Part shown: positions 20,135-54,857 of the stretch, piece by piece
Numbering within the stretch: position 1 is the stretch's first letter
Layout: each line of letters opens with the position of its first letter
Program-made: the position numbers and the translations under genes
Notes under the pieces: model-generated
Told to the model about the DNA's origin: nothing
Databases searched by the model: none
Seen by the model: only the letters and a program-made list of their open reading frames with translations
From: an uncultured Tateyamaria sp.
Lineage (GTDB): Bacteria; Pseudomonadota; Alphaproteobacteria; Rhodobacterales; Rhodobacteraceae
Length of the DNA stretch: 64,000 nucleotides
Assembly: GCF_947503705.1 (NCBI RefSeq)
Contig: NZ_CANNES010000013.1
Location: 1 to 64,000 of the forward strand
Direction: 5' to 3'

Positions 20135-20163
20135 CAGTCTATACCTTTGTCAAAATGCGAAAA

Positions 20164-20187: not shown

Positions 20188-20202
20188 CCGATTTCAGGCG
20201 CC

Positions 20203-21126: not shown

Positions 21127-21296
21127 TTATGTGTCTCCCACTTGGATTTTGAGCGCGCCCCGGACCGGATCACGCAACAAGGTGACGCGCCGATTTGAGT
21201 AAGTCCAAGTGCGCGCCCCGCTTTTCTGCGGTCAAGCGTATAGGGGGTGTCACGCGAATTAAAGCGCAATTCTGTGGCCTGAGGATGCTTTGACGC

Positions 21297-22526
21297 TCAG
21301 CGCGTCGCCATCCATGCCTGCCATTGCGTGGGCGGCGCCCCGAAACCGGCTGGGAGCGGTTGGCGCAGCACGGCGCAGACCAGCGCCGCCGCGCGGTTGT
21401 TCATCTGCTGCGGCACGTCATTGAGCAATGTGCCCACCATGGTCACAAAGCCCCGATCAGCCCCTTTTTTCAGAGGCTCCGATAAACCCGCGCTGCGGGC
21501 CGTGGCCAGATCGCGCAGACACAACAATACCCTCCGGTCCTCTTGACCAAGCCCCGCGTAGTCCAGTGTCGGCAGGGCCGCCCCTTGCGCCTTGGGTCCG
21601 AGATCTTTCATCCGGTGATGTCCGACGGCCCAAAGGGCCGCGATCCGTATCCGCCAATCGCTGTCTGCCAAACTGGCAGAGACAAGCGCTCGGGCGGCCA
21701 TGTCGTCCGAAATGCCATCGCTGGTGATGGCAGCACACAGCGCCTCCCAACGAAGTTGCGCAGCACTTGCGTTGGCTGGCGCAGCCCGGGGCGGCACAGT
21801 CAGCAACTCGGTCAAGGCAGCTTCGGGGTCCTGGACGATACGGCCACCGCAGGCCTTTTGCAGGGCATGGGCAAGGCGTGGCGCGCTATGCCCGCGAATC
21901 TCGACGTGCGGAACGCCTGCAGCATCTGCATGCCAATCCACCTCAAGACCCAGATCGGGGTGGCGGGTCCAGGATGCAAATGCGGGCGGATCGATTTGCG
22001 CCACGGCATCGCGATCTTGGGTTAGGCCAAAGTCGCCAGCAATTCGTTTGACACACGCCAGCGTAACATCCCTGACGAGGCACCGCGTGCCGGGCATGTA
22101 GGCAATCCGGTGCAGGTCAAAACCGGGCGGTGCTGTAACCGTGGTCGGGATGTGCGTGACCAGAGCAAAGCGGACGTTGCTCAGCACTTCGGAACACGTC
22201 GGAAGGGCCTCAAGACTGTTGTCCAGATAATCCATCGCAATCGCTTCGAGCGTCTCATGGCACCGCTCCACCAGAGCATAGGGGGCATCGTGCGCCTGCC
22301 AGATGACCGCATCCGAACTCGCATCATGAGCGGCCAATTCGCCCCCGACGTTTTGCGGATCGGTCACGAATTGTGCGGGGTTGCGCCGCAGCGCGCTATC
22401 GAGAGACGCCAAAATAGTGGCGAGGGACAAAGTTGTTTCCCCGAAATCCCCGGACAGCAGATCAGCGATGCGATCCGCCGGTCCATCCCCAATCAAGTCA
22501 CCCGATTTTTCGCGCCACCAGCCCAT
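21297..22526 (-). CDS. Hypothetical protein after the giant HINT/GIY-YIG protein; candidate immunity or accessory factor
   Basis: A 409-residue protein I cannot assign. It begins MGWWREKSGDLIGDGPADRI and has a helical N-terminal part, a central alpha/beta segment containing MPGTRCLVRDVTLACVKRI and GLEVDWHADAAGVPHVEI, and an alpha-helical C-terminus with a HEAT-like stretch (ALVSASLADSDWRIRIAALW). No signal peptide or membrane segment. It starts 3 nt after the stop of the giant gene, the last gene of the eCIS locus. In polymorphic toxin systems the gene directly after the toxin is usually its immunity gene, so a cytoplasmic inhibitor of the nuclease domain is the leading guess. It is large for an immunity protein, so a chaperone or loading factor is equally possible. 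Confidence 0.6.
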   Translation of the reverse strand: MGWWREKSGDLIGDGPADRIADLLSGDFGETTLSLATILASLDSALRRNPAQFVTDPQNVGGELAAHDASSDAVIWQAHDAPYALVERCHETLEAIAMDYLDNSLEALPTCSEVLSNVRFALVTHIPTTVTAPPGFDLHRIAYMPGTRCLVRDVTLACVKRIAGDFGLTQDRDAVAQIDPPAFASWTRHPDLGLEVDWHADAAGVPHVEIRGHSAPRLAHALQKACGGRIVQDPEAALTELLTVPPRAAPANASAAQLRWEALCAAITSDGISDDMAARALVSASLADSDWRIRIAALWAVGHHRMKDLGPKAQGAALPTLDYAGLGQEDRRVLLCLRDLATARSAGLSEPLKKGADRGFVTMVGTLLNDVPQQMNNRAAALVCAVLRQPLPAGFGAPPTQWQAWMATR

Positions 22527-22529
22527 CTG

Positions 22530-25500
22530 TCACCTGCAAGGATTGTGCAAATCGGCGTGCCGTTTGATTTGGTCATCGCTGATCGCATGGATGTCATTGA
22601 TCAGGGTGCTGCGCGGATGTTCTTTCTGCAAGCCCCCATTCTGCCGAATGAAATGCTCTTCCCAGATTGCGGTTTCGTAATCTGACCATGTGCCGCTCGC
22701 AAGTTCGCGGACCTCATGTGTTTCGGCCGTCCAGGGCACATCTTGAAGCTGCTTAGACTCTGACCGCAAGTGTTCGGCAAACCGGCCCTGGACGGTCGGT
22801 TTGTTCGTTTTGCCGACATAAAGGATCACAGTCGGGTCGTCTATTCTGACCACGGCATAGATCCGTTGAACCTGCCGGGACGTGCTCTTCCAGTTTGAGG
22901 TGGTCGCATCGCCCGAACCGTTGTGCACGAGGATGCCCGCCTGCCCCACACGGTACACATGATCGGGCGTGACGATCAGGTTCGCTGTTGTGATGCGCCT
23001 GGCACATAGGCGGACGGCGCTGACCTCTACCGGCGCTTTGGCGCCGCACAGTTTCAATCCGGGATAGAGCAAGGCGGCCGGGCGCCAGTGATCTTTGCCA
23101 GGTCCGACCGCAAAGGGGTGACTGCGGGTGGCGACCAAAACTTCCCCGGTCTCAAGCGTGACCTCGACACAGACCGGAGCCTCGCCCCGAATGACTTCTC
23201 GGACGGTGTTCAAGACGCCCTCATAGCCGTCAACTTCGGCGCCGGGCACGGCGTCCTCAATGGCAATGACTGCCCCACGGGAAACCGAAACCGGCGTACC
23301 CAGTTCAAAGCACGGAATGCGCACCGGATCGCCCAGATTATGGGGCTTTGCGTGGTCAAAGGTGCTGCTTTTTCGCCAGCGGTCCATGAGGTTGGCGATG
23401 GATTCGTCAATGATCTGGCGTCGTTCATCCAGCCCTGCGATCCAACGTTGATATTCCGGCTCCATCCTGAGCGTCGCGTCAAGTGCGCGCATCAAGGATG
23501 GGACAGGCGCATCGCCGGTCAGATTGCGATAGGCTGGCCGGTCGAACCGCGTTTGCAACAGGCGAAACGCTTGCTGACGGCGGCCATCCATAAGGAGATC
23601 GAGCGCACGCTCGGCGGTGCCACGCATCTCTGCGCGTAGCCCTTCGTTATCCGCCATCGCATCCAGCACTTCCTTGAGGTTTTCGGTCGGGCCATCAATA
23701 TGGTCAATCTCGGCTTGAAGCAGATCACGCAGTTCCACCGCCTCGTCGAGGTCCGCGCGTACTTGCGCCGCCTCCTGCATGGCCTGCATCCGTTTGGCCT
23801 TTGCGACGGGATCCTCTGCCGTGCCGCGGACGGTCGCTTTTCTTTTCGGTGTTGCCGCCACATAGCCGCGCGCCTCTGCCGCACTGCCCAAATCGGCCCG
23901 AGCCACTTCGCGCATGAACTGCGCCTCAAGGCTCGCAATCTGTTCCAGCACAAGCGCCCGGCGGCGCGGGTCTAATCCATGTTCGGACAGGCGCGTCATG
24001 CGTTCTTCGATGATGCGCGGCAGTTTGGCGACCTCCAGGTTGGCCTCCCACGCGCCCATGTCGCTGGGATCGACAACGGTTCGGTTCATATGGCGCGCGA
24101 TGCGGTTCATGAACATGCGAACACGACCCGACAGGCCCGCATAGCGGCGCATGGCGTCGACCGTGCCCACGTGCAACTGGATGTCGATGGCCCGCGCATT
24201 CGGGCCCACCTGCAAGGCCACCCCCGTTATGTTGCCTTCGCGGTCCCTCTGAGGCACGGCGCGCACCTCGTCCACCCCAAAGGTGGGATCGTTGACCACC
24301 GATACCTCGACGCGGTTGCGCAGCCGCTGTGGCAACGCCTCGGCCGGGTTGACGGTCCGCCCGCGCGTGCCAGGGGCCACGATGTCGCGCAAGGACGGCC
24401 CAATGCCCGCGATGGCAGAGGCCGGCGCCCCTTCGCGGATGATGATCACCGCCTGTCCTTCGTGCACGTGGACAAAGGCATCGCCAAAGTTGCCACCGTT
24501 GTAGCGTCTGAACTCCGCCCCGTTCACATGGATGATCGGCACATCAGCCACCGCGCCCCGTTCGCGTGGCGGGATCTCGGACAGCAGAGCGCGACGCGCA
24601 TGCCGCTGCGCGCTGCGGATCACATCGGCGTGGTCGCTGTTGGCGGCAGCATAGCTTTCCACATAGCGGGCAAAGTCGCCGGGCGAGGCGCCCGGATTGG
24701 CGTGGCGCCAGTGGCGCAGGTTCCGTTCATGCACCTGCGTTGGCGTGAATGGGTCGGTGTGGACCATCCGGCGCACCCCACGATTAGCAAGATTGCCAGC
24801 GGCCCCCATGATCACGCCGTCGCGCAGATTTGTCAGCGATGCCTCCAACGTGCCGCGCATGATGTTGACCCCGACATTGCCATGCCGCCAATTCTGTTCG
24901 TTCAGCAGGTTGGCCGTCATCGTGGTGGGGATGGCCGAAGCCGCATCTATGGCTTGCGACCGAGCATATTGCCGCCCGGCCCCATGCAGCCGCTGCGAGA
25001 CGCTTTCGCTTAGCCCCTCCCGAGCACTGGCCCTTGCGGTTTGCTGCGCCGCTGCCCGCAAACCAACACGTATGGATTGGCGGCTGATGGCGCTGACCTC
25101 TTGCATCACCCCCGACAACATCACGCGCGCATTCTGTAAAAGCGCACCACCCTTGAGCAAGCCGGCCGTTGCCATCGTCACCGCCAGATCGACAAGGCCC
25201 ACGGCGATATCGGTGCCCAGTTCTTCCATGCCGTAAGCGCCGCCCTTGATCGCTGCCTTGGCCGCGATACCGCTAACCGTGCCGACGATTGAGCCGCTCA
25301 GCGCGATGGCTGCCCCCAACGCAGGCGACAAGGTCCCCCCCGAGAGCACTGTCGCCACGGCGGCCACCACGATGACCACGGCGCTGACCACATAGCCCAG
25401 CACGGTAGTGAAGGTGTCGGCATAGGAATCCACCCGGTCCCTCTGGGCCTGTATGGACGTGCTGACCCGCCCCTTTTGGTCGTTGAAGCTGGCCGTGATG

Positions 25501-28500
25501 TTTTCGCGTTGCTGCGGCGTCAGGCTGGGGTCGCGCATGCGGCGGGCCATCGCCTCCAGCGCGGCCAATTCCTCGCGGGACCGCGACGATTCAGATTCTG
25601 ACGCCCAGGCGCCCAGCAACCCGACGCTGGCCTCGTCGCGCTGTAACCGGCGGCGCAATTCGTCCACTTGCTCGGCGACAGTTGTGGGCGCGCCGTGATC
25701 GTAAAGATCGACAAGGTCATCTTCGTCTCGTCCACTGGTATCTGACTGGATTGCAGAGCGCAGCGTTTCGCCCCCGTGTTCGCGCGACCATCGGGCATTG
25801 AGGCGCTGGATTTCAGCGCGGGTGAGGCCGGACATTCCGCCGCGCAGCTCGGCCATGTCGGTGCCCGCGCCCTCAATGCTGTGGCGCACGCGGGTATAGG
25901 CCCAGTCCAGCCTCCGATCCTCGGGGCGGCCCGGACTGTTTGCATCGCGGCGCATGATCTCGATCCGGGCACGGGCATTGGAGAGATCGCCGCCCGGCCC
26001 AAAGACATTGTCCGACATCGTGTTGTTGATCATGGTGTCGAGCGAGATGCCGTAGCGGTCCTTGAGCCGGGTATCGAGAGCATTCACATTGCCACGCGCC
26101 CGGTCAAAGGCCGCGTCCGCCATGGTTGCCGTCATCTGGCGATCAAGGCCCATGCGGTAATTCTCGATCTGTTCGGCGGTCATGGGGGTGCCCGCGTCAT
26201 CACGGCGGCGGACCTCCTGGGATACGCGGCGCTGTACGCCCCGGCGCAGTTCGGGGCCGCGTTCCAGCGCCACCATATCGGCGGCGGCGGTGTATTGTGC
26301 GGTCACGACGCTGCCCATCGCCTCGTCATCGGCGTAAAAACTGCGTCGTTCGCCCTGCATCCGGCCCGCCGACACCCCGACCATATCGCCTGCCTGAAAG
26401 GCCCGAATCCGGTGGCGATTGCCCTCATCAAAGGCAAACTGATAGCCCACCGCGTTTTCAAGCGCCGTGCCAGACCCCCAATTGTAATTGGACCGTCCTG
26501 CATATTGCGTTTGAAAGGCGTCACTCATTTGCTGGTTGCGGCGATAGACAGCGGCCTCGAACTGCGCAGGGGTCCATCCCTCGCGCCGCGCCCGGGTCAT
26601 TTCCTCACTACGGATGCGGGCATAGACGGCGGCTGCCGCATTTGCATCACTGGACCCAAGCGCCATCTGCATTTCATGCGCTTCGGCCTCGCGCATGTTG
26701 CCCGCAACCATGGCCAACGCACGTGCTCCTTCGGAGCCGCTCATGTCCTCGCGGATGCGGCTTGCCAGGCTTTGACCATAGCGTTCGCGGTACACTTGAT
26801 CGGCTCGTTTCAAGGCCCGGGTGCGATCAGGTTCGGGTAACCTGTTCACAGTCTCAAGGGCCTCGAAAATCTGCCCCTCGCTGGTGCCTGCCCCGTAAAC
26901 GGCGTCGTGAATGGCCTCTGCTGCCGCCTCGCCTTCATCCCCGCGCATCAACGCTTTGGCCCGGCGCCACTCATCCCCCGACAACTCGCCATCCAGATCA
27001 CGGTAGAGCGCATTTTCCCCGCGCCCGTCTGCATAGGCGAATTGATTATAGGCCGCCGTGAGGGCCAGGCGTTCAATCTTGCGCAGACCCGAAAGCTGGC
27101 GAAAGATGACATCCTCTTCGGTGCCCAGATTGTCGTCATAGCCCGCGGCCAGAATTTTGTTGGCGCGTGTGACTGCGCTGAACGTCCCGTTCTTGGCCTT
27201 GGCCGCACTGTCGAGCGCGCGCCACGCGGTGCGGGGCAATGCAAAAAGCTCGGCCTCGACGCGGCGTTCGATCCCGGCTTTTTGGGCGTCCATTTGGCTG
27301 CGCCGGATCGGCGCGCCGATCTGGCGCATCAGTTGCGTCGAATTCTGGATGTTGCGGGCGACGAAGTTGCGCCGCTGTCCTTCGGTCAATGCCTGATAGG
27401 CGGTCAATTCGTCGGCGTTCTGAGCGATCTGCCCTTCGATGCGTTGGCGCACCCGTTGGGCGGCGCGCTGCATCTGCAACCGGGCGAGCCGCGCCTCGGT
27501 TTGCGCCCATGTGTTGGCGGTATCGGTCGCATTTTCGGCCCAGGTATCGAGGTCCCGGACCTTGCTTTGCCACCAGCCTTCGACCGCCCCGTCTTGCGTG
27601 TTGCCCCAATCTCGCAGGGCCCGAAAGGCGTCCGCGCCGGCATTCTGAACATCACGGATATTGAGGGCGATTGTGGCGTCCACGCGCCCTTTCATCTGAC
27701 GAATCTGCGTTTCGATTAACGTTTTTTGGGCGGTTTTCCACGTCTCGGCCGCGCTGACGATCCGGTTGATCGCGCGGCGGGCCGACCAGCTGAGATCGGG
27801 GGGATGGGTGGCTCCGGGAGTGAGGCCGCGTGCGCGTTCCGCGTCGAACTGATCGGCCATGGCCGCCAATTCAACCGCAGTGAGCCACCGGGCCTTGGCC
27901 GCATCAAGCTTGTCGTGCCGCTCCTGTTTTTCGAACTCAAATCCTGCGATGGCCTGGCTGACCTTGGCCTGAATGGTGCGAATGACCCCCTCGGCTGTTT
28001 CCCGAAACCCCATGGCAGGGGCCCTGCCACGTCGGACGTCGCGGGCCTGTTGTCGGGCGGCAGCCGCCTGCGCCTGCGAGGCGGCAGCATCATCCAGCCG
28101 GGCCTGCGCGGTGTCCTCAACGGTCAGCAGGTCACCTGTCGCCGACGCATGCAGCGACGTCGTGCGCGCCTGCGCCTCGCGGTCCAGGGCACGACGACGC
28201 TCTGCCACAGCCGCGTCCAGCGTGGCTCCAGCGGACCCGAGCAGACCCGCCACGCCCTCGACCCGGCCATCCATATCGGCCACCAGATCCGGCACGAGAC
28301 CCTTGCCCAATTGCCCCAATTCAGAAGGGTTTTCCCGGGTCAACACATTGCCGGGGTATTCTTTCATGCCCCCCTTGATCTGATCCAGCACGGATTGCGC
28401 GGCATCCCGCCCACCTGCTTTGAGGTTGGCAATTACAGCGGTGAACATCTCTTGTTCCGCTACCGTAATGGTTGCGGGAGGCAAAGGGTCTGAGGCGACC

Positions 28501-29597
28501 GTGAAGGCGTCAGGTGCCACAGCTTGAGCATCGGCCTGTTCCGCCCCTTCGGCGGGTGTCGGTTGTGGCGCTGCGGCTGTTTCGGTCGGATCAGGCGTGG
28601 CTGGCGCTGTGGGGGTTTCGGTTTCTGCCTGAGCCGCTTGGGGGTTCAGAAGGCTTTCGCGCACTGCCATGAGTCTCGCACGCGTTGCACCTGCCGCCTC
28701 ACCGCGCTGCGCTTCTTCGGCCGTCGGGGTGCCACCGGGGCGCGACAGTTCCAGATCGTCCATTGCACTTGCACCCCGGCGAACGGCGCGCTGTTCTTCG
28801 GGTGACAAAGCCTGGCGGGGCACTTGAACGGTATTGTTGCCCGGACTTGCGGGCACGTCGGGCATGGTTTGGGCGGGCAAGGCGCGCGCGGCGATGACCT
28901 CGATCGCGGCGGTGGCGGGTTGGACCGGATCAGGCACATTGGCAAATTCAGGATCGGCCAGGGGCACGGGCGGCGGACCCGCGATTTGTCGGCGCGTGGG
29001 CCTGCGCCGTGGCCGCCGCGTCGGGCGGGCCGTGGCGCCCCCGCCACCCAGCGGCGGCCCGGGTATCGACGAAGCCGTTTCGCGCGCCGCTTGTGCCACA
29101 GCGGCCGCGCCGCCCCCAGAGGGTACAACCACGCCGCCACCGCGTGGTGCGGCACCCGCCGGTGCAGGGGTGGGCGGCGCAACCACTTCACCAGTCGCCG
29201 CGTCATTGGGTGGTGGAGCGTCGCTGGCATTTGGGGCTTCATCCTCCACCGCAAGCGGTTCGGCAGGGTCAGCGGGTGCTGGGCGACCCGCCTCTGTCTG
29301 CGCCGCTTCTTCCTCTTCCTCGTTGTCTTCGGTGGTCTGATCCGCGTCCACTTCCACAGGTTCTGGCGGGTCGGCTGTTTCCTCCGGCTCGGACAGCAGC
29401 GCGGCAGTCGCCTGGTTGCCGATGCTTTGCTGCGCCGCCAAGGCCATGTCATGCGAAGGCGCAACGCCCTGCGTGCCCAAGAGCTGCGCCAAATAACGCT
29501 GTGTCGCCTCGTCCGCTCCGCGGACATAGTCGCTCCGCCGGTCTGTGGAAGTCGTGGCGGCGGCCTGTTCTCTGACCGGATCAGGGCGGATCACCAT
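22530..29597 (-). CDS. Giant eCIS-associated protein: IGNQA-type N-terminus, annexin-like repeats, HINT domain, GIY-YIG-like nuclease
   Basis: A 2355-residue protein. In order: an N-terminal motif LAAQQSIGNQATAALL (53-68), like that preceding many eCIS cargo cores; a Pro/Ala/Glu-rich linker (about 70-370); long charged helices rich in Gln/Ala/Arg (370-820); four annexin-like repeats (about 820-885, 900-960, 1150-1205, 1241-1300); a hydrophobic segment (about 1395-1450, with a weaker one to 1485); more helices; a HINT domain from Cys2096 to His2225-Asn2226 (ILVHN); and a GIY-YIG-like domain (2246-2330) with YVGKT at 2260-2264, Arg2272, His2276, Glu at about 2313 and Asn2320. HINT domains self-cleave next to the terminal Asn, so the nuclease could be released as a free toxin. 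It lies between the AAA+ ATPase gene and a 409-residue partner. A tape-measure role is also possible. The weak ribosome site makes the start uncertain. Confidence 0.8.
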   Translation of the reverse strand: MVIRPDPVREQAAATTSTDRRSDYVRGADEATQRYLAQLLGTQGVAPSHDMALAAQQSIGNQATAALLSEPEETADPPEPVEVDADQTTEDNEEEEEAAQTEAGRPAPADPAEPLAVEDEAPNASDAPPPNDAATGEVVAPPTPAPAGAAPRGGGVVVPSGGGAAAVAQAARETASSIPGPPLGGGGATARPTRRPRRRPTRRQIAGPPPVPLADPEFANVPDPVQPATAAIEVIAARALPAQTMPDVPASPGNNTVQVPRQALSPEEQRAVRRGASAMDDLELSRPGGTPTAEEAQRGEAAGATRARLMAVRESLLNPQAAQAETETPTAPATPDPTETAAAPQPTPAEGAEQADAQAVAPDAFTVASDPLPPATITVAEQEMFTAVIANLKAGGRDAAQSVLDQIKGGMKEYPGNVLTRENPSELGQLGKGLVPDLVADMDGRVEGVAGLLGSAGATLDAAVAERRRALDREAQARTTSLHASATGDLLTVEDTAQARLDDAAASQAQAAAARQQARDVRRGRAPAMGFRETAEGVIRTIQAKVSQAIAGFEFEKQERHDKLDAAKARWLTAVELAAMADQFDAERARGLTPGATHPPDLSWSARRAINRIVSAAETWKTAQKTLIETQIRQMKGRVDATIALNIRDVQNAGADAFRALRDWGNTQDGAVEGWWQSKVRDLDTWAENATDTANTWAQTEARLARLQMQRAAQRVRQRIEGQIAQNADELTAYQALTEGQRRNFVARNIQNSTQLMRQIGAPIRRSQMDAQKAGIERRVEAELFALPRTAWRALDSAAKAKNGTFSAVTRANKILAAGYDDNLGTEEDVIFRQLSGLRKIERLALTAAYNQFAYADGRGENALYRDLDGELSGDEWRRAKALMRGDEGEAAAEAIHDAVYGAGTSEGQIFEALETVNRLPEPDRTRALKRADQVYRERYGQSLASRIREDMSGSEGARALAMVAGNMREAEAHEMQMALGSSDANAAAAVYARIRSEEMTRARREGWTPAQFEAAVYRRNQQMSDAFQTQYAGRSNYNWGSGTALENAVGYQFAFDEGNRHRIRAFQAGDMVGVSAGRMQGERRSFYADDEAMGSVVTAQYTAAADMVALERGPELRRGVQRRVSQEVRRRDDAGTPMTAEQIENYRMGLDRQMTATMADAAFDRARGNVNALDTRLKDRYGISLDTMINNTMSDNVFGPGGDLSNARARIEIMRRDANSPGRPEDRRLDWAYTRVRHSIEGAGTDMAELRGGMSGLTRAEIQRLNARWSREHGGETLRSAIQSDTSGRDEDDLVDLYDHGAPTTVAEQVDELRRRLQRDEASVGLLGAWASESESSRSREELAALEAMARRMRDPSLTPQQRENITASFNDQKGRVSTSIQAQRDRVDSYADTFTTVLGYVVSAVVIVVAAVATVLSGGTLSPALGAAIALSGSIVGTVSGIAAKAAIKGGAYGMEELGTDIAVGLVDLAVTMATAGLLKGGALLQNARVMLSGVMQEVSAISRQSIRVGLRAAAQQTARASAREGLSESVSQRLHGAGRQYARSQAIDAASAIPTTMTANLLNEQNWRHGNVGVNIMRGTLEASLTNLRDGVIMGAAGNLANRGVRRMVHTDPFTPTQVHERNLRHWRHANPGASPGDFARYVESYAAANSDHADVIRSAQRHARRALLSEIPPRERGAVADVPIIHVNGAEFRRYNGGNFGDAFVHVHEGQAVIIIREGAPASAIAGIGPSLRDIVAPGTRGRTVNPAEALPQRLRNRVEVSVVNDPTFGVDEVRAVPQRDREGNITGVALQVGPNARAIDIQLHVGTVDAMRRYAGLSGRVRMFMNRIARHMNRTVVDPSDMGAWEANLEVAKLPRIIEERMTRLSEHGLDPRRRALVLEQIASLEAQFMREVARADLGSAAEARGYVAATPKRKATVRGTAEDPVAKAKRMQAMQEAAQVRADLDEAVELRDLLQAEIDHIDGPTENLKEVLDAMADNEGLRAEMRGTAERALDLLMDGRRQQAFRLLQTRFDRPAYRNLTGDAPVPSLMRALDATLRMEPEYQRWIAGLDERRQIIDESIANLMDRWRKSSTFDHAKPHNLGDPVRIPCFELGTPVSVSRGAVIAIEDAVPGAEVDGYEGVLNTVREVIRGEAPVCVEVTLETGEVLVATRSHPFAVGPGKDHWRPAALLYPGLKLCGAKAPVEVSAVRLCARRITTANLIVTPDHVYRVGQAGILVHNGSGDATTSNWKSTSRQVQRIYAVVRIDDPTVILYVGKTNKPTVQGRFAEHLRSESKQLQDVPWTAETHEVRELASGTWSDYETAIWEEHFIRQNGGLQKEHPRSTLINDIHAISDDQIKRHADLHNPCR

Positions 29598-29602: not shown

Positions 29603-31615
29603 CTACCGCGCGGCGTCAAGCCGCCCGAAATCGGCGGCAATGGGTGTGCGGCCCGCCTTGGACAACTCCCGTTCGATGGCGCGCAAAAGGTGGGGCATGC
29701 CGATGGGGGTACCCATGGCTGCGGCCAGATAGGCCGCCGCGAGCGCAGCGTTTCGGATGTCGCCACCGGACAACTCGAACGTCTCGGCAATGGCGCTCAG
29801 ATCAACGGTGTCGGCCAGCGGGGCCTGCGCGGGAAATGCCCGTTGCCACAGCGTGCGTCGCCCAGTTGCATCCGGCAGCGTAAAGGCCAGCGCGTGGCCG
29901 ATCCGGCGGGCAAAGGCATCGTCCATATTGCGTGGTAGGTTGCTGGTCAGGATCACCAGCCCTTCATGCTCTTCAATACGCTGCAACAGATGCGAGACGG
30001 TGAGGTTGGCATAACGGGCATGAGCGTCATTTTGCTCGGTCCGCGCACCGAAGAGGGCGTCCGCCTCGTCACACAGGATCGCAACGCCCGCTTCGGCGGC
30101 AGCCTCGAACAGCCGGTCAATCTGTTTCTCGGTTTCGCCCAGATATTTATCAAAGATACTGGCCAGTGATGCACGATAAAGCGGCACCTGCGCTGCGCGC
30201 GCCACCACGCTGGCCGCCATTGTTTTACCCGTGCCGGAGGGGCCGGAGAACAGAGCAAGGCAGTGGCGCGCCTGTGGGTTGGAATGCACAAAATCCCAGT
30301 CGCCCAGAACCGTCGGCCAATTGGTGACAAAGGCGGTCAATTCGTCCAACTGGCGTGCAAGGGTTTCAGACAGAACGAGGTCATCGCGGGTCCAGCGGGC
30401 TTGAACGGGGCGCAAAAGCGATGGCAACGGCGCGCGGTCATGTGCCTCGGCCCCCCAGTTCAGCCGCGCAATGCCCGCAGGGCCCAAACGCGTGCCCCAG
30501 GCAATCCGGGTCAGCGCCGCCTCGTTTAGCCCACCGTCTGTGCGCCGCAACCAAACCAACCTATCGGTCGCCTCCAAGGGTTTGAGCGCGATCCGTTCGA
30601 CTCGGGTCGGGGCCGCCGTGGTGATCCGGTGGGCAAGGTCGGTGCCTGCCGACAGCGCAAAGGGGACGCCATGTGACAAGAGCTGCGTCACACCTGAAAT
30701 GGCAGAGGCGTCCCGCGCCAGGTCGTCCGCAACGATGTATAGAAATGCACCCCGCAGCATGGCCTCGCGCGCGGCCAAGATGATCAGGTTTTCAGCCTCT
30801 GCATTGGCGGGCAGACGGCTCAGATCAAGGCGCAAGAGGCTCTGCCCGTGCTGCATTGCGCGTCTGGCGGCAAGTGCTTGTTGTCCGCTGTCACGCCGGG
30901 TTTCAAATACAGTGACGGGTTTCGCGCCGATGAGCATCGTCAAAAGATCGGGGGCCCAATCCTCGGCTTCGGGATCAAGCGGCGTAAGCGCATGCGAAAG
31001 AGCGGCTGGCACACCTGCCACCTGTCCCAAAAGCGCCATGGCAACCCGCGCATCCACCCCGAGCGCACGATCCGCCAGGCCCGTTTGCACACCGGGCGCC
31101 AGTGGCACCAACAGTCGGTGGCGCAGCAATGGGGCATCGTCGGCAAATGCACCCAGCGCATCGAAACGCGCATCTGGCGCAAGCATGTCTATGATAAGGT
31201 TGGGACTGGCGCAATGGCGCGTCACATCGTTTTGCGCCATGGCCAAGGCTGACCGGTAACGGCTGTCGAGAGCGGGGGCAGCGGCCACCATCAGAGCGGT
31301 TCGTTCGAACGGATCCAAGCCAAACGTCGCTGCAATTTGGTAAAGCGGCGGTGTTGGCGCGAAGGAAGCGCGCGCGTCGATGATCTCGCGCAGCGGGTCC
31401 TCGGACCGCGTTGGAATATCTGTAGGCGTGAGGCCCGCGATGACGTAGTCTGTGTCCAGCTTCAGCCCGCGCAAAGTGCTGTCGTCGAAGCGTTTTTCAT
31501 CCTCCAGACGTCGCAGATAGTCGGCAATGCGGGCATTGAGCCATTGAAATTCGGCCTCGATATGTTCCGCGGCAGAGGCAAAGGGTTGGGTGCGCACTGT
31601 GTCCAACCGCATCAT
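29603..31615 (-). CDS. eCIS AAA+ ATPase (Afp15/Pvc15-like)
   Basis: A 670-residue protein. The N-terminal 400 residues form a helical region with a degenerate ATPase-like half. The C-terminal AAA+ module has Walker A (GPSGTGKT, about 456-463), Walker B with sensor context (VAILCDEADALFG, about 507-520), ILTSNLPRNMDDAFARRIGHAL carrying sensor 1 and the arginine finger, and the lid GGDIRNAALAAAYLA. Such ATPases are conserved in eCIS loci and thought to help assembly or loading of the particle in the cytoplasm. The ATG at 31615 overlaps the upstream stop, and the giant gene starts 5 nt downstream, so the two are probably linked in function. Confidence 0.9.
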   Translation of the reverse strand: MMRLDTVRTQPFASAAEHIEAEFQWLNARIADYLRRLEDEKRFDDSTLRGLKLDTDYVIAGLTPTDIPTRSEDPLREIIDARASFAPTPPLYQIAATFGLDPFERTALMVAAAPALDSRYRSALAMAQNDVTRHCASPNLIIDMLAPDARFDALGAFADDAPLLRHRLLVPLAPGVQTGLADRALGVDARVAMALLGQVAGVPAALSHALTPLDPEAEDWAPDLLTMLIGAKPVTVFETRRDSGQQALAARRAMQHGQSLLRLDLSRLPANAEAENLIILAAREAMLRGAFLYIVADDLARDASAISGVTQLLSHGVPFALSAGTDLAHRITTAAPTRVERIALKPLEATDRLVWLRRTDGGLNEAALTRIAWGTRLGPAGIARLNWGAEAHDRAPLPSLLRPVQARWTRDDLVLSETLARQLDELTAFVTNWPTVLGDWDFVHSNPQARHCLALFSGPSGTGKTMAASVVARAAQVPLYRASLASIFDKYLGETEKQIDRLFEAAAEAGVAILCDEADALFGARTEQNDAHARYANLTVSHLLQRIEEHEGLVILTSNLPRNMDDAFARRIGHALAFTLPDATGRRTLWQRAFPAQAPLADTVDLSAIAETFELSGGDIRNAALAAAYLAAAMGTPIGMPHLLRAIERELSKAGRTPIAADFGRLDAAR

Positions 31616-33282
31616 ACCGCCCTCGGCAATTGCAGCATGACCGGGCCGCTCGCTGTTTCGACCAATGTGCCACCCATCCCACCCATGCGCAGGACCAGAT
31701 CCAACGGCACTGACGGCAGGCGAATACTGGCCGGCCCCCCGGGTTCAAGCCTGCCCCAGCCCGCCAAAAGCCTGTCCCAACTCCAAGCTGCACTCGCCCC
31801 CTGAAGACCATGCAAACGGCGCGCAAAATCGCCATAAGCTGCCCGCGCCAACAGAACCCAAGGCCGTCGCGCGGCGCGGTGCCGTATGTCGAACCAGGCC
31901 AAATCGACGGCCGGATCACGCGCATCGGGGGCGGGTAGTTGGGGGCCTGCGCCCATGCGTCGGATCAAGCGGTCCGCGCGGCGTCCGTCCCCGAGCCACA
32001 GCCAGTCTTGCGTGTGGCGGTCTTGAACGATGCTCAGGCGTCCGACCCGCGTCACGGTGGGGACAACCGGAAATGGGTGGCGGCGCGCGGCAAAATGGAC
32101 GGCAAAGCGGGCCGCCAGGTCGGGCGGCGGATCGGGCATAGCATAGTCCTTGGGAACGTGATCACACAACCAGTGCAACGCGGGATCGTTCCACGCCTCG
32201 TGATAGGCACGGCCCGCCAAGGCGGCGGCCAGGGCCAGCCGCGCCGGACCTGCCGCATCGCCCGCTGGTAAAAGGTCTACCAGCTTGAGTTCCATGACGG
32301 ACCGCCAAAGGACAAAGACACCGGCAAAGCCAGTTTCGATGCCAGCGGATAGTTCGGGTGCGCCTTGCGGGCTGGCGCTCGATATCCTTTGGGGCCGTGT
32401 TTCTGGTTTGACGGAGTGTGCCTGCGCAGGTTCTGTGTCTGTTTTTGGCATTGGTGCACTGTCGCTGGGCACCGGTTCAACGTACGTCACGGCGCCCGCA
32501 TTCTCCGCCTCGCTTGCAAGACGGATGGCACGTTCGACCACGGCAAAGCTTGGCATAGGCGCATGGGGTTCTGTGGATGCAACATCGACCAAGGCCGTCA
32601 AAGCCGCGCCAAAAGAGCGTTTCGGCGTCGCGGTGCGTTCGTGCACCAAACGTGCCATCAGCGTGGGTGACAGCGTTGGCCGCTGCCCGCGCACGGCAGG
32701 CAGAAGCACGCGCAAAATTGCGCGACACCCCACGTCGCCAATGCGCGTGCAGAAAAGGCGCATGCGGTCTTCGCGGGCGATCAGGGCGAGCGCGGGCAGC
32801 GCGACGTCGGGCTCGGCTGCAAGGGTCAGGCGTACGGCGTCTGCGGGCGGCAGAGCCGCATGATGGCGATAGCGTGCAAATTGCCACTGATGTGCTGCGG
32901 TTCCGTCCGCTTGCGCCCACAGGCACGCAGCAAGCCAAGCCGCGCGGGTGTCATACCTACGCACGCCCTCAATGACTTCACCGGCCAGCAGGCCCGCAAT
33001 CTGATCGCGCAGTTGCGCTGCAAAGCCTGCCACCAGATGAGGCACGCCCTGCCCCGCCTCTGCCTGAAAGCGCACCGTCATCCGTCGTACCACCCAATAG
33101 CTGGGGTCGTTGGGGTCAAGGCAGTTGTCCAGGACCTTTTGCAGAGCCGTGGCAATATCCGCTTTTTCTGGCAAGGCTGGCGGCAAGCCCGACCCATGAT
33201 GAAAAAGCTTCAGCTCGAGTGCACCCACTCTCAAACTGGCCCGCGCGTCTTCAGACGCAGTCAGGCGCGCCGCACCCGTCAT
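31612..33282 (-). CDS. eCIS-conserved protein of unknown role
   Basis: A 556-residue protein matching the architecture of a family repeatedly found beside eCIS ATPases. It has an N-terminal helical part with VEVIEG-like DTRAAWLAACLWAQADGTAAH repeats, a Pro-rich linker (about 270-315), then ETGFAGVFVLWRSVMELKL, a motif like the GGLFYL(I/L)N segment of that family. It ends in a beta-rich domain (LSIVQDRHTQDWLWLG; final LDLVLRMGGMGGTLVE). The ATG at 33282 overlaps the upstream stop (ATGA); the frame open to 33345 starts inside the previous gene. No enzyme motif, signal peptide or membrane segment. It could be an assembly factor; the recognition is from memory of the family, so moderate. Confidence 0.65.
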   Translation of the reverse strand: MTGAARLTASEDARASLRVGALELKLFHHGSGLPPALPEKADIATALQKVLDNCLDPNDPSYWVVRRMTVRFQAEAGQGVPHLVAGFAAQLRDQIAGLLAGEVIEGVRRYDTRAAWLAACLWAQADGTAAHQWQFARYRHHAALPPADAVRLTLAAEPDVALPALALIAREDRMRLFCTRIGDVGCRAILRVLLPAVRGQRPTLSPTLMARLVHERTATPKRSFGAALTALVDVASTEPHAPMPSFAVVERAIRLASEAENAGAVTYVEPVPSDSAPMPKTDTEPAQAHSVKPETRPQRISSASPQGAPELSAGIETGFAGVFVLWRSVMELKLVDLLPAGDAAGPARLALAAALAGRAYHEAWNDPALHWLCDHVPKDYAMPDPPPDLAARFAVHFAARRHPFPVVPTVTRVGRLSIVQDRHTQDWLWLGDGRRADRLIRRMGAGPQLPAPDARDPAVDLAWFDIRHRAARRPWVLLARAAYGDFARRLHGLQGASAAWSWDRLLAGWGRLEPGGPASIRLPSVPLDLVLRMGGMGGTLVETASGPVMLQLPRAV

Positions 33283-35372
33283 GGCATCAGAACCGCGACA
33301 TAAGAGAACCTGTTCAGGCGGCCGTCGGAATCTTCGATCCGCCAATGGACCGGAAAGGTCACGCGGTTACCATTCGACACCGAATGGGTGCCGTTCGTGT
33401 AGTGCACGCGCCAGCGCGCATTGATGGCGGGGCCCGCGTTGCTGATGTCTGACAAACCCACCATAAGCTGGGCCGAACCCACATTGGTGATCCGCGAAGT
33501 GACGACCTCCAGCGAATGGATGCCAGAGCCTGCGCCACTTTCGTTCAGATTGACCTCGCCCGTGATCACGTCGACCAGGACGTCTTGCCCGCGCGAGGTC
33601 AGCCCCCCGGTGACTTCGACATCACGCCCGAAAAAACCATCGCCCTGATTGTCGACCCAGAATTGTTCGGTAAATCCCGCAGCCTCCGGTCCGACAACAA
33701 ATCGGTCGAGGCCACCAGAATCATTGCCAATGCGCACCCGCAGATGGTGCGCCTCATTTCCTGAGCGGTGGCGGTAAATCTCGAGAGGATCGCCGTCCTC
33801 GTTTCCATTGGTGTCCAGAAAGGCGACCCTTTGACCATGGGTCTCGATCCGGCCGCGAGACCGCACCCCGCCTTCGACCGTAAGCCTGCTGGCATTGTCC
33901 AGGGTCATCGCTGTGGCGCCCCCGCCGTTGGACAGGGCGCCATCATCATGGCCGCCGCCGCGATACCAGGCAAAATTCCGACGCGACCGAGCGTAAAGCG
34001 TGTTGTTCTGCACGCCGATCCCGCTTTCCTGTCCCGACATCTCGAAATTGAGGACCTGCCGGTAATCCTGACCGAACTCCAGGGCACCCTGGCTGGTCAG
34101 CCGCATCAGCTGTTCCCCATCCGTGCCCGGATCACCCACGCCTGGCTCATGTGCGCCTCGGTGATACCAGTAGAAACTGTTGCCGGTCCGGGAGTAGAAA
34201 CTGGGCCCTTGCCAACCGATCCCTTTTTGACTGGGTTCAGGATCGCTGGGCACACCCAGATCAATCGCTTGGCGCGCGCTGTCGGTGAACCGCAACCGCC
34301 CATTTGGAATGTCGACCATCCCGTCGGCGCGCATGGACACGACAATAGCCGCCGGATCGGTGTCATAGGGCTCAAGCCCCGTGCCAACGGTCAGTCGCGC
34401 ATTCAGCGCTGCGTCGTCCTCGCCGATCTGGGCACGCAAATCCGCCCCACTGCCCACGGCATCGGGCACCCGGCGCAGTGTCAGAGGCACGGTTTCGTCG
34501 CTCCCACCCACCGACTGAAAGCTGAGCATGCCGCCATGCAGATAGGCGTCCGCCTTGCCGATCACGCGGCCCTCGATCGTTACCCGCCCTTCTACCGTGG
34601 CGAAGTCTTCAGCGTCCGGGCCGCTCAAATGGGGTGTGCGCGGCGCAACGCGCAAAGTGCCGTGATCAGACAACAGCGACCCACCGATAAAGCCCGCGTT
34701 CACGCGCCCCGTGGTCAGGTCAACCGGGAAAACGACAGGGCGAAACTTGCCCACGGTCCCATCCCAACGCACGCTGCCCAACCGGATGGGCCAAAAGCCT
34801 GATGATCGCGGATCGGGAAAGTCCTGTGCAGGTAGGGATTTGTCCCAGGGCAGCACCGGTGCCCCCCCGTCCGGTGAGCCGTCGGCCAGAGCCGGTTTCG
34901 CCTCCAGCCCGCCCACGATCAGCGGGTCATGTTCGGTCGTCAAAGTGCCTACGATAAAGCGATAGGTTTCAACCACCCGACTATAGGCCGTATCGCCGAT
35001 GCAGATGGTCGTGCGTACATCATCCACGTCGCGGCGGGCGTTTTCGTCATAGTGGATCCACAACTCCAACAATCGTTCGGAATTGAAAACGGCAAACAGT
35101 TCGGGCGGAACCGCCACGGGATCAAGCAGCGTGATCCGCCGACCGAAACCATCCACGATCAGCCCCGGCTGCACCTTGATATCGACAAAACCATCATCGC
35201 CTTCGCGCGGGGTCTCGACAATCTCGCAGCCCTGCACGATGCCCCATGTGTGCGGCCCCAGATCGTGCCGGGCGCGGGCATCGCGGTGGTATTGCTGCTC
35301 CAGCCGGAAATCCTCGGCACCCACCTGCTGGAACTGGAAATAGTTCATCCGTTCGATGCTGTCCTTGCTCAT
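33279..35372 (-). CDS. Putative eCIS tail-fibre/decoration protein, paralogue 3
   Basis: A 697-residue protein. Its N-terminal 110 residues are related to those of the next two upstream genes: FQQVGAEDFRLEQQYHRDAR, then HDLGPHTWGIVQGCEI and VQPGLIVDGFGRRI. The middle contains beta-rich repeats; two similar copies read SFYSRTGNSFYWYHRG and TLYARSRRNFAWYRGG (about 395-500), each followed by a short MRLTSQGALEF or MTLDNASRLTVEG strand. The C-terminal 200 residues look like a tail-fibre tip (VEVTGGLTSRGQDVLVD). It is likely an exposed fibre or receptor-binding protein attached through its N-terminal domain. A good AGGAG site supports the ATG at 35372. The next gene overlaps by ATGA. Confidence 0.65.
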   Translation of the reverse strand: MSKDSIERMNYFQFQQVGAEDFRLEQQYHRDARARHDLGPHTWGIVQGCEIVETPREGDDGFVDIKVQPGLIVDGFGRRITLLDPVAVPPELFAVFNSERLLELWIHYDENARRDVDDVRTTICIGDTAYSRVVETYRFIVGTLTTEHDPLIVGGLEAKPALADGSPDGGAPVLPWDKSLPAQDFPDPRSSGFWPIRLGSVRWDGTVGKFRPVVFPVDLTTGRVNAGFIGGSLLSDHGTLRVAPRTPHLSGPDAEDFATVEGRVTIEGRVIGKADAYLHGGMLSFQSVGGSDETVPLTLRRVPDAVGSGADLRAQIGEDDAALNARLTVGTGLEPYDTDPAAIVVSMRADGMVDIPNGRLRFTDSARQAIDLGVPSDPEPSQKGIGWQGPSFYSRTGNSFYWYHRGAHEPGVGDPGTDGEQLMRLTSQGALEFGQDYRQVLNFEMSGQESGIGVQNNTLYARSRRNFAWYRGGGHDDGALSNGGGATAMTLDNASRLTVEGGVRSRGRIETHGQRVAFLDTNGNEDGDPLEIYRHRSGNEAHHLRVRIGNDSGGLDRFVVGPEAAGFTEQFWVDNQGDGFFGRDVEVTGGLTSRGQDVLVDVITGEVNLNESGAGSGIHSLEVVTSRITNVGSAQLMVGLSDISNAGPAINARWRVHYTNGTHSVSNGNRVTFPVHWRIEDSDGRLNRFSYVAVLMP

Positions 35373-35396
35373 CGGGTGCTCCTGTGTCGGTTGGGG

Positions 35397-37190
35397 TCAG
35401 CCCTTGCGGGGTTTGGTCGCCTTGGTGGCGCCCTTGGTTGGGGTGCGGCGCTTGGTAGTGGTTGCGGTCGTTGTTCGGGGCTGTTGCTTGGTGATCGGTG
35501 CCATTTCCGCGCGCATCGCTGTGACTTCCTTGCGCAGCGCCTCGATCTCTTTGCGCACGTCCTCGACCTTAGGGGTCATGACCTCTGTGTCCGGCTTCTT
35601 GGGGGCCACGACGGTTGCCGCGGCCTTTTCAAACTGCGCCGAGATCGTGGGCAGGATTGGCGTGTCCGAGAATTTGGCCGCCATCGCCACATAACGGCGC
35701 GGAAGGGCAAAATCGTCTTTGGTGATCTCGCGGCGCAGCTTGCCCGAGGGGTCCACCTGGTCCAGCAAAGGCATCAAATCGTTCACCAAGGGCGAGTTCC
35801 GGCGCAGCAGGTCAGGCCGACAACACAGTGATGCCAGCGCCCGGGCAAACAGCGGGATGAGCGGGATCAACGACATCCAGTAGAAGGTTGACGGGAAGGC
35901 ACCCGCATATTTGCGACAGCTATGATTGCAGATCGAAAGGATCTTGCCGTTCTTGACGCTGATACAGGCCAGTTCCACCCGCGCGTCACAGGGATCGTCG
36001 GGGCATTTGGGCAAGAAGGCCCGGCAGATACAGTCAAGGATTGCCTGCACCCACGCCGCCACGAGGTCGGCAGACATCTGTTGTGCTCGCGCGATGTAAT
36101 CCGCGCGGTTTTCGCCTTCGGCCGTATTGGTCTGGGTGGCGGGCGGCGCCAACTTGACCTCGGCCGTGGCCCGCAAAAGCTGACAACGGGTAGAGCCATG
36201 GTCGTCCTGTAGCACCTCCAGCACCGCGGCCCGTACATGGCACAACGCCAGATGCACGTCGTCCAGGTTCAGATCGCTCGCTGCCAGTTGGCTGGGCGTC
36301 CCGCCCGACAGCTGCGATAGTACGACGGTGTCCTGTTTGGTCAGCCGGTTGGTTACCGTCTGCACATCATTGATCACGCAGTTAAGGATATTTCGCAAAA
36401 GCGACTTTTCGGGAATGAGTGTTCCGATGAGGCCCAGAGGCTGCCTGTCGGCAACTCCGATTGTATCACGACCCTGACCGGTAAAACTGGGCGCGCAGGG
36501 TTCCTTGCGCGGGATCAGCGTCACGTCAAAACATTCACGGACCCGGCGCGGGGCGCAAGCATTGCTGGCTGCAAGCGTGCTTGGTTTGTAATTGGTCACA
36601 GGTTTGGTGCGGGTTGTACTGCCGCACCCACAAGACCCGCCGCCACCGCAATCGCCATCGCAACCACAAGACACACCGCCACCTTTGCCAATGGTGTCGC
36701 ATGCGTATCCACCTGTCGTCAGGCGTTGGCCCACTGCCGTCTGGACCTCGCGATATTCCAGCGCGATGCACCAATGGCTGAGTGCGTCTCCGCAGCCGTC
36801 GTCCCGAGGCGGCACCCACGGGTCGCAATCTCTGGGCCGTTTGCGGGCCACCCGGGTGCAATCCCGGATCGCTTCGATCACGTCATAGCGGACGGCATCA
36901 GCCACCACGATGTCGTCCCCGCACGGGTCAATGGCATAGCCTGGGCGGATCGTCACCGACCCCTCGCAGTCATGGCATAGCACCTCAAGCCCACAGACGA
37001 CGCCCCAGCCATGCTGGTAACGGTTGTGGAGCCGGTTCTTGGTCTGCACATAGTCCTGCAAGGCCGTCAAGTCCGCCGCCGTCAGGGTCTGCCCGGTGCC
37101 AAAAAGCGGGCGCTCCGCCGTCTCAAGTCCGACACAGGCCGCACAGCAGCACGGGTCGTGGGTGTCGCAATTACAGTTTGTCATCGACAT
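35397..37190 (-). CDS. Cysteine-rich eCIS protein, paralogue 2, with C-terminal coiled coil
   Basis: A 597-residue protein. After a Cys cluster (NCNCDTHDPCCCAAC), it shares with its neighbours the block LTAADLTALQDYVQTKNR, HNRYQHGWGVVCGLEV and IRPGYAIDPCGDDIVV (about 35-97). Further Cys/Gly runs follow (SCGCDGDCGGGGSCGCG, near 200), a helical middle, then ACISVKNGKILSICNHSC and a hydrophobic stretch FYWMSLIPLIPLFARAL. It ends with a coiled coil (KVEDVRKEIEALRKEVTAM) and a Lys/Thr-rich basic tail. The many cysteines suggest disulfides or metal sites in an extracellular particle part. The start at 37190 has GGAG at good spacing; ATG 37184 is an alternative. Confidence 0.65.
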   Translation of the reverse strand: MSMTNCNCDTHDPCCCAACVGLETAERPLFGTGQTLTAADLTALQDYVQTKNRLHNRYQHGWGVVCGLEVLCHDCEGSVTIRPGYAIDPCGDDIVVADAVRYDVIEAIRDCTRVARKRPRDCDPWVPPRDDGCGDALSHWCIALEYREVQTAVGQRLTTGGYACDTIGKGGGVSCGCDGDCGGGGSCGCGSTTRTKPVTNYKPSTLAASNACAPRRVRECFDVTLIPRKEPCAPSFTGQGRDTIGVADRQPLGLIGTLIPEKSLLRNILNCVINDVQTVTNRLTKQDTVVLSQLSGGTPSQLAASDLNLDDVHLALCHVRAAVLEVLQDDHGSTRCQLLRATAEVKLAPPATQTNTAEGENRADYIARAQQMSADLVAAWVQAILDCICRAFLPKCPDDPCDARVELACISVKNGKILSICNHSCRKYAGAFPSTFYWMSLIPLIPLFARALASLCCRPDLLRRNSPLVNDLMPLLDQVDPSGKLRREITKDDFALPRRYVAMAAKFSDTPILPTISAQFEKAAATVVAPKKPDTEVMTPKVEDVRKEIEALRKEVTAMRAEMAPITKQQPRTTTATTTKRRTPTKGATKATKPRKG

Positions 37191-37209
37191 CTTTCCTGCT
37201 CCTTTTGGT

Positions 37210-39696: not shown

Positions 39697-39709
39697 GGCA
39701 GGCTCCTGG

Positions 39710-43893: not shown

Positions 43894-44299
43894 GGCCGGC
43901 ACCTCCCTCGTCGAGTAGATAGAAAGGGAACACCAGGTTCCCGGCGGCATGGGTTGCGCGCAGGCGGTAGTCGATCCCGATCATGAGCTGGTTGGGCGCA
44001 TCGCCTTCGGTCACCGAGATGTCGACAATGTCGATCCGACGCTCCCAACGCAGTAAGGCGTCGCGGACCTGATGGGCAATCTGGGCCATGTTTGCGGGCG
44101 TAATGTCGGAAAAGACGTAGTCGTGGATGCCACAACCAAAGGTCGGGTTGCGCTTTAGCTCGCCCTTGGAGGTGGCCAGGATCAGCCAAATGGATTGCTG
44201 GACCAACTGTTCTTCATTGGCCGTCGCAATGGCCCCGTTGGGCGTGACCCGAAGTGGAAAGGCAAACCCTTGGCCCAGAAATGCGCGCGACGTCCTCAT
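43883..44299 (-). CDS. eCIS baseplate wedge protein, gp25-like (Afp9-like)
   Basis: A 138-residue gp25/GPW-family protein. Typical segments are QGFAFPLRVTPNGAIATANEEQLVQQSIWLILATSKGE (split over residues 10-46), then RNPTFGCGIHDYVFSD and VRDALLRWERRIDIVDISV. This small protein starts sheath polymerisation at the baseplate and clamps the wedge. The ATG overlaps the stop of the preceding unknown gene (ATGA), and the last codons contain the ribosome site of the baseplate J gene. Confidence 0.9.
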   Translation of the reverse strand: MRTSRAFLGQGFAFPLRVTPNGAIATANEEQLVQQSIWLILATSKGELKRNPTFGCGIHDYVFSDITPANMAQIAHQVRDALLRWERRIDIVDISVTEGDAPNQLMIGIDYRLRATHAAGNLVFPFYLLDEGGAGRAT

Positions 44300-45075: not shown

Positions 45076-45079
45076 CGCC

Positions 45080-47582: not shown

Positions 47583-47764
47583 CACACGAGGTCCCGCGAG
47601 CGGTTCCGTGCTGTACTACGCAGCGCGCGTTCTTCGTCGAGGCGGGCGCCAAGGCGGCGCGCTTCCGTCAGTTTCTGCACGACCTCAGCCACAATTTCGG
47701 CCTTGAAGCCCTGCACGTCGAGGCTCAGCGCCTCGCCAGTCATCTCTTCAATATCAATGTCCAT
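47582..47764 (-). CDS. Small eCIS protein, DUF5908/Afp6-like
   Basis: A 60-residue protein in the position of Afp6, between the second tube gene and the LysM gene. Its start MDIDIEEMTGEALSL and helix VAEVVQKLTEARRLGARLDEE fit the DUF5908-type small eCIS proteins. An AAGGAG site nine bases before the ATG at 47764 fixes the start. The role is unknown; because of its size it may bind the tube or baseplate as a small clamp. Confidence 0.7.
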   Translation of the reverse strand: MDIDIEEMTGEALSLDVQGFKAEIVAEVVQKLTEARRLGARLDEERALRSTARNRSRDLV

Positions 47765-47778
47765 CTTGTGCGTCTCCT

Positions 47779-51076: not shown

Positions 51077-51089
51077 GGTCTGTCCTTTC

Positions 51090-53153: not shown

Positions 53154-53183
53154 GGCAAGAGTTCCTTATGTTTGAGGGCAAAT

Positions 53184-54856: not shown

Positions 54857-54857
54857 G

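Follow-up and report, generated by a model that had tools for sequence, protein, structure and literature searches.

In this study, we analyzed a stretch of 64,000 nucleotides (hereafter the window) from contig NZ_CANNES010000013.1 of an uncultured Tateyamaria sp. (assembly GCF_947503705.1), which carries an operon for an extracellular contractile injection system (eCIS). This operon includes a gene for a giant protein of 2355 residues, in which annexin-like repeats are followed by a HINT domain and a C-terminal domain resembling GIY-YIG nucleases. On the basis of sequence comparison, we consider it reasonably probable that the giant protein is a cargo of this eCIS and that its HINT domain frees the C-terminal nuclease. 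An eCIS delivering a self-processing nuclease had been proposed in an earlier note on this DNA, and this proposal is supported by the HINT profile and residues, by the eCIS operon and by homologues located in other eCIS loci. The features on which it depends most are as follows.

22530..29597, minus strand: 2355-residue annexin/HINT/GIY-YIG-like protein, proposed eCIS cargo (open frame, with homologues at the matching operon position)
22920..23312, minus strand: HINT domain, residues 2096-2226 (profile match to 2lwy, E=6.2e-11, and catalytic residues)
29603..31615, minus strand: eCIS AAA+ ATPase with a winged-helix domain (PF22977, E=1e-25; PF00004, E=3e-22)
31612..55015, minus strand: eCIS structural operon (Pfam and PHROGs matches; largely colinear in Roseomonas and in genome G263, described below)

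The earlier note had placed the gene and its 2355 residues correctly at 22530..29597, with no strand stated. It lies on the minus strand, with an ATG at 29597, a stop at 22530 and no internal stop codons. The gene is real and not a chance open frame, because homologues of 2315 and 2380 amino acids occupy the matching operon position elsewhere. The former, on Roseomonas marmotae plasmid p1318-4, is annotated as a 'hypothetical protein' (30% identity over 75% of the query) and is flanked by genes for an ATP-binding protein and for a homologue of the HEAT-repeat-like protein encoded next to the giant protein in the window. The latter, a full-length homologue in a genome of another family than that of the window (G263), follows the ATPase gene; both loci are largely colinear eCIS loci. 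In the window, the giant-protein gene is placed toward the 3′ end of the operon, 5 nt after the ATPase stop and 3 nt before the HEAT-like gene, which confirmed the claim that it directly follows the AAA+ ATPase gene in an eCIS operon. The concern that homologues might occur only outside eCIS loci was answered by the opposite observation: all three complete members, that of the window included, are found in an eCIS locus after the AAA+ gene. A truncated homologue on a short contig of a Chloroflexi metagenome-assembled genome (JACRBK010000062.1, 2858-8431) also follows an AAA+ gene and is cut by the contig end before the HINT domain.

Because of this synteny, export by a non-eCIS route is unlikely. 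HINT toxins normally use T2SS, T5SS, T7SS (type II, V and VII secretion systems) or TcdB/TcaC and not T6SS (type VI), according to PMC3482391 (here and below, published papers are cited for the accessible parts of their text); the T5SS and T7SS named in the earlier note as usual routes agree with this list and the T6SS does not. Such usage could favor an ordinary polymorphic toxin that merely sits beside eCIS genes and is exported by a different system, but the operonic spacing on both sides and the identical position in three distinct loci argue against it. Moreover, no segment of the first 1391 residues passed the hydropathy threshold and a Sec signal was not apparent, and we regard this explanation as highly improbable.

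The HINT domain extends, as had been proposed, from Cys2096 to Asn2226, with C2096 as the C1 cysteine, TRSH at 2157-2160 and H2225-N2226, followed by G2227. A profile built from the three tails, in which the Roseomonas row is incomplete at the start, matched 2lwy, a bacterial intein-like domain of solved structure, over positions 15-146 (E=6.2e-11). When the last 276 residues of the window protein were scanned alone, PT-HINT (E=0.013, 16.2 versus 27.7 bits) and Hint_2 (E=0.04) were both below cut-off. For the Roseomonas protein, PT-HINT reached 30.9 bits in the last 351 residues (cut-off 27.7) and 27.0 bits, just below cut-off, with the whole protein, and the G263 tail gave 28.3 bits for Hint_2, just below its cut-off of 28.4. 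The C1 cysteine, the TxxH motif and HN-Gly were kept in all three complete members. We regard the HINT assignment, as judged by sequence, as secure because of the profile match to 2lwy and the clearer Pfam scores in the relatives. A reading as a splicing intein was rejected: the residue after the terminal Asn is Gly, and not Cys, Ser or Thr, in each of the three members, and for this reason cleavage rather than splicing is predicted. The stretch after N2226 has 129 residues and a computed mass of 14.8 kDa, in agreement with the C-terminal fragment of about 14 kDa that had been predicted. From known HINT chemistry, the expected cleavage site should be removable by a single mutation. An expected site defined to the residue (N2226/G2227) would allow both the need for and the timing of post-injection cargo cutting to be addressed.

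In the survey of Zhang 2012 (PMC3482391), HINT was reported as "never" used with the Photorhabdus virulence cassette secretion system (PVC-SS) and as mutually exclusive with the metallopeptidase DUF4157. Because of this apparent exclusivity and the lack of HINT in PVC-SS, the two domains were proposed to be functionally equivalent. DUF4157 is a marker domain of eCIS toxins, whose role was described as still to be studied (PMC8213781). This domain (eCIS_core) is frequent but not universal in eCIS cargo, and no Pfam match to it was found in the window protein or its three relatives. Its profile gave no match in the genome of the window at E<=0.001, where 14 controls were silent; the same model recovers a Streptomyces protein (E=1e-22). 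In the fetched Roseomonas and G263 stretches, a motif search with known false negatives gave no DUF4157 hit. Judged by sequence, the four proteins of this HINT family appear to break the "never" of the survey and to fit its "mutually exclusive", and three eCIS-operon genes with HINT and without a DUF4157 match represent the combination that the equivalence idea predicts. A HINT-bearing, DUF4157-free eCIS cargo would be assembled from known parts (eCIS, annexin cargo, HINT release and GIY-YIG-type toxin) in a combination that the survey excluded. HINT in eCIS cargo was not described in the open literature searched, a scope outside which lay supplementary tables, subscription papers and preprints. 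Neither 'hint' nor 'GIY-YIG' occurs in the accessible text of PMC8213781 or PMC11297309, and in that of PMC11796102 PT-HINT is named as a general pre-toxin marker only.

The distribution of both domains was assessed in 15 other eCIS loci, in whose fetched stretches open reading frames of at least 120 amino acids were searched. Seven of these loci were in genomes: ten genomes had the eCIS ATPase winged-helix model, from which the two members (window and G263) and G579, with no eCIS marker found within the fetched 20 kb on either side, were left out. The other eight were plasmid loci chosen from 60 listed of 135 records with a related ATPase. A HINT hidden Markov model (HMM) built from the family detected no HINT domain in these loci, its best non-member having E=2. 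This model was based on three related sequences, recovered its one positive control (a Streptomyces HINT toxin, L062) at E=2.4e-15, and could be escaped by divergent HINT domains. DUF4157 was present in at least 5 of the 15 loci by motif or annotation, the motif having overlooked annotated cases, and no phmmer match to the giant protein was detected in the fetched stretches. In one of these systems, on Cereibacter azotoformans plasmid p2, a nuclease-like protein of 1269 amino acids (17369-21178) is encoded two genes after the ATPase. It has a C-terminal RGHLLN motif like that of DNA/RNA non-specific nucleases, as read by eye, and no HINT match.

The part of the protein that HINT would release corresponds to the following feature.

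22533..22874, minus strand: GIY-YIG-like nuclease domain, residues 2242-2355 (PF01541, E=0.0013, below cut-off)

This domain probably has a GIY-YIG fold, as suggested by its residues. It contains Y2247, Y2260-V-G, R2272, H2276, E2313 and N2334, all of which are unchanged across the alignment of the three members, and it aligns to residues 1-110 of E. coli UvrC through Y, YVGK, R and E. Shuffled sequences reached the score of this comparison in 14 of 1000 cases for the window, 15 for G263 and 727 for Roseomonas. Several results weigh against this assignment. PF01541 scored 19.4 bits on the last 125 residues against a cut-off of 22.6 and remained below cut-off (E=0.0073) when the last 276 residues were scanned alone, and no GIY-YIG match was listed for the Roseomonas and G263 tails, which were scanned against Pfam as longer tails only. 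Searches of the PDB set with the domain profile and with the window domain by itself found no GIY-YIG structure. A profile comparison with UvrC/YhbQ, in which the reference was a poor two-sequence alignment, was also negative. With full-length UvrC, the score was reached by 58, 63 and 779 of 1000 shuffles for window, G263 and Roseomonas, respectively, and with YhbQ by 138, 9 and 1000; the Roseomonas domain was no closer than shuffles to either protein. The residue-order pattern, a post hoc one and hence not independent evidence, matched this family only and neither UvrC nor YhbQ. PHROGs and NCBIfam scans of the window domain gave no match. Given this marginal and inconsistent sequence support, the protein could be an eCIS cargo whose C-terminal domain has another fold or activity. 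We consider this unlikely, in view of the conservation of Y / YVG / R / H / E / N, in this order, across all three members and of the UvrC 1-110 alignment with its few matching shuffles. With regard to the earlier assignments, the residue set of a GIY-YIG-like nuclease was recovered and the Pfam score was marginal; likewise, for the polymorphic-toxin architecture of HINT plus nuclease in an eCIS operon, the parts and the operon were verified and the GIY-YIG identity is marginal by sequence.

Identity between the window and G263 proteins was 60% in the repeats region, 65% in residues 1701-1920, 31% in the linker (1921-2090), 41% in HINT and 68% in the C-terminal domain; the corresponding values for window and Roseomonas were 38% for HINT and 32% for the C-terminal domain. 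Among the segments for which window and G263 were compared, the C-terminal domain is the most conserved and is thus probably under selection. Its coding GC content is 0.55, versus 0.63-0.68 in the other segments measured; this would fit a late-acquired cassette, and the conservation with G263 suggests infrequent swapping. The domain alone gave no match in phages and plasmids, and its matches in 398 genomes were limited to the genome of the window and G263. The final residues (window 22530-22547, residues 2351-2355) read H-x-P-C-R in all three complete members, despite the low Roseomonas/window identity of the domain (about 32%).

Upstream of HINT, the giant protein contains several further regions.

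28488..29597, minus strand: hydrophilic low-complexity N-terminus, residues 1-370 (from sequence; contains SIGNQATAALL, with G60 N61 Q62 A63)
26937..27128, minus strand: annexin-like repeat 1, residues 824-887 (repeat HMM, independent E-value 6.9e-11)
26700..26888, minus strand: annexin-like repeat 2, residues 904-966 (PF00191, E=3.6e-8; repeat HMM, independent E-value 9.4e-6)
25716..25865, minus strand: annexin-like repeat 3, residues 1245-1294 (repeat HMM, independent E-value 2.5e-8)
25152..25424, minus strand: hydrophobic region, residues 1392-1482 (Kyte-Doolittle 19-residue mean up to 2.64)
23838..24380, minus strand: shared pre-toxin module, residues about 1740-1920 (also in a Streptomyces protein and in G1002, G525 and G579)

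In a Pfam scan of the whole protein, Annexin was the only family above cut-off (PF00191, residues 892-954, 33.8 bits versus 25). An HMM built from three repeats of the Chloroflexi relative revealed three clear annexin-like repeats and one insignificant stretch, which bears out the annexin-like repeats that had been noted. Repeats in the Chloroflexi protein itself are stronger than those of the window (PF00191, E=1.1e-30), with GxGT[DN]E loops. The N-terminus has a GN[QR] motif common to the window, Roseomonas and G263 proteins, and a Kyte-Doolittle sum of -37.6 over the first 35 residues. A trend reported for eCIS cargo is a hydrophilic N-terminus with an aromatic residue in the first eight positions (PMC11297309); unlike this trend, the window protein has no aromatic residue among its first eight, which counts against its being a cargo.

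Segments similar to the hydrophobic region are present in all three relatives. Such segments resemble those of phage tape measures. In addition, no tape-measure gene was recognised in the operon by Pfam or PHROGs, and a structural role of the giant protein is conceivable, as a tape measure or internal scaffold with the HINT/nuclease tail as a minor or decaying appendage. The location of the gene inside the operon in all members and the window/G263 identity of 46-65% across residues 821-1920 are also compatible with this role. We nevertheless find it quite unlikely: the published PVC set includes cargo in which a C-terminal toxin follows an annexin domain (PMC3482391), all three complete members conserve the HINT and C-terminal residues, and the 15 other eCIS loci have related structural genes and no phmmer match to the effector in their fetched stretches.

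If the protein is a cargo, as we favor, its loading, cleavage and nuclease activity are what we infer from its sequence. The ATPase would recognise the hydrophilic N-terminus as a loading signal, and the protein would be packed in the tube and then injected. Its annexin/hydrophobic part may aid action at or across the membrane after injection. HINT would cyclise N2226 and cut before G2227, and the 14.8-kDa nuclease freed by this cut would cleave DNA. In this scheme, HINT would have the role in toxin release with which DUF4157 is credited in other eCIS cargo. A broader and tentative idea, about which we have more doubt than confidence, is that in a DUF4157-free branch of eCIS HINT is the cargo-releasing autoprotease: the toxin would be carried uncleaved in the tube, and Asn would cyclise only once the protein has been ejected, at a moment perhaps set by engagement of the annexin repeats with the membrane. 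If true, the takeover by HINT would be a natural exception supporting DUF4157 as the normal release protease of eCIS toxins, and a GIY-YIG-type nuclease would be added to the eCIS cargo.

HINT cleavage is usually spontaneous after folding. The domain might act in the producer, before or during loading, or be inactive, rather than provide a release step in the target; this would also be compatible with a C-terminal domain of another fold. No means of holding HINT back could be seen in the sequence, and a proline precedes the C1 cysteine in the window (P2095) and G263 proteins. However, the producer would have to be immune to a nuclease freed inside it, an immunity that the HEAT-like gene may provide, and a release domain located directly before the toxin obeys the HINT rule of PMC3482391. 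We therefore consider cleavage in the producer, or an inactive HINT, rather unlikely, and prefer release in the target. The HEAT-like gene is located immediately downstream.

21297..22526, minus strand, 3 nt downstream: 409-residue HEAT-repeat-like protein, candidate immunity protein or partner (weak HEAT matches below cut-off)

This gene is next to the effector in all three complete members (downstream of it in Roseomonas and G263), and phmmer searches of the 15 other eCIS loci with its product gave no match at E<=1e-4; an immunity or partner function therefore fits better than a structural one. Imm-HEAT is a named immunity class (PMC3482391), and the protein is most simply viewed, from these sequence data, as the producer's immunity protein or as a holding partner. 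Were it an immunity protein, bacteria would be among the targets.

The pre-toxin module provides a view of what may follow it in other proteins. A Streptomyces plasmid protein is similar to residues about 1740-1992; it contains eCIS_core (E=1e-22) and gave no HINT match, and the stretch fetched around it showed no eCIS marker. In two proteins of G1002 and in G525 and G579, a part of the module (about 1785-1915) is followed by a deaminase-like end or by other nuclease-like ends, the types of ends being assigned by eye from motifs. Default hmmsearch filters missed proteins that were recovered with the filters off. The toxin-type ends in these three genomes make what follows the module elsewhere look like toxin, on sequence grounds. 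The two G1002 proteins (L047, 6788-10180; L048, 7312-10479) share the module and differ in their ends (deaminase-like and nuclease-like, as read by eye), and the former is near an open reading frame matched by the spike-type protein of the window. Within the giant-protein family, the same kind of tail was present in all three complete members, and differing C-termini were seen only after the module. A search for eCIS homologues with varying C-termini had been proposed in the earlier note; eCIS homologues were identified, and the variation was limited to distant proteins sharing this pre-HINT domain, with none among the family members.

From sequence searches, this family seems to be rare and of scattered occurrence. 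Among 72,556 plasmid records, two matched and one, the Roseomonas plasmid, contained a long homologue. When 385 genomes of the window's class were searched with a profile of the core (residues 1230-1920), three matched: that of the window, G263 and one with a weak match. In further samples, the profile matched 5 of 398 genomes in a phylum sample, 2 of 195 in the order of G263 and 3 of 196 in the window's own order; no further full-length member was found in these overlapping samples. Weak core-profile matches were observed in G050, G627 and G937. The HINT/nuclease tail of the window was detected in 1 of 20 genomes of the genus, its own. In a scan of genome_contigs, 1 of 187 stretches with the pattern proved to be a homologue, the truncated Chloroflexi one, and two scans of viral_contigs (58 and 66 pattern stretches) yielded no confirmed homologues. 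This rare and scattered distribution suggests lateral transfer of the family.

Several known systems share features with the window protein. Annexin toxins linked to PVC-SS/eCIS in Haliangium and Microscilla likewise have annexin followed by a C-terminal toxin domain (PMC3482391, PMC3894181); in the accessible text they are listed with DUF4157 and a single annexin domain, whereas in the window protein there are three annexin-like repeats, DUF4157 gave no match and HINT lies directly before the toxin. HINT polymorphic toxins, such as the Streptomyces NBC_00334 plasmid protein (L062), also carry HINT toward the C-terminus before the toxin region, but the 24 kb fetched around L062 showed no eCIS marker. 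Tox-URI1 (GIY-YIG/URI) toxins have a C-terminal nuclease of the GIY-YIG superfamily, sometimes with HINT, and a Y, YxG, R, E, N pattern (PMC3482391). Their published [RK]xxE motif part corresponds to AIWE in the window, and their export routes, as listed in the accessible text of the same paper, do not include PVC. A nuclease delivered by an eCIS is already known in Pne1, an effector of metamorphosis-associated contractile structures (MACs) (PMC10598620), which we liken to the window protein by description and not by sequence. Afp18-type giant cargo is of similar length and in an eCIS, with a different toxin.

Upstream of the giant gene, the operon encodes a Pvc16-type terminator (PF14065, E=1.2e-27), two sheaths, two gp19-type tube proteins, a CIS_tube/LysM protein, a Phage_base_V spike protein, gp25, baseplate J and a Tail_P2_I protein, together with a collagen-containing tail-fibre-like protein and several genes without a Pfam match. 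Both sheath and tube pairs (window 47779-53153) are matched in G263 and annotated in the Roseomonas locus. Three large genes (577, 697 and 626 amino acids) located at window 31612-37277 had no significant Pfam or PHROGs match. A further gene precedes the operon.

55513..56253, minus strand, upstream of the operon: LuxR-type response regulator-like gene (read by eye from the sequence)

This gene is a probable regulator, and the Roseomonas locus has an annotated response regulator at the equivalent position. On the plus strand, an L-arabinonate dehydratase gene (NF009559, 1048.6 bits; window 56454-58277) adjoins the eCIS locus as an ordinary metabolic neighbour.

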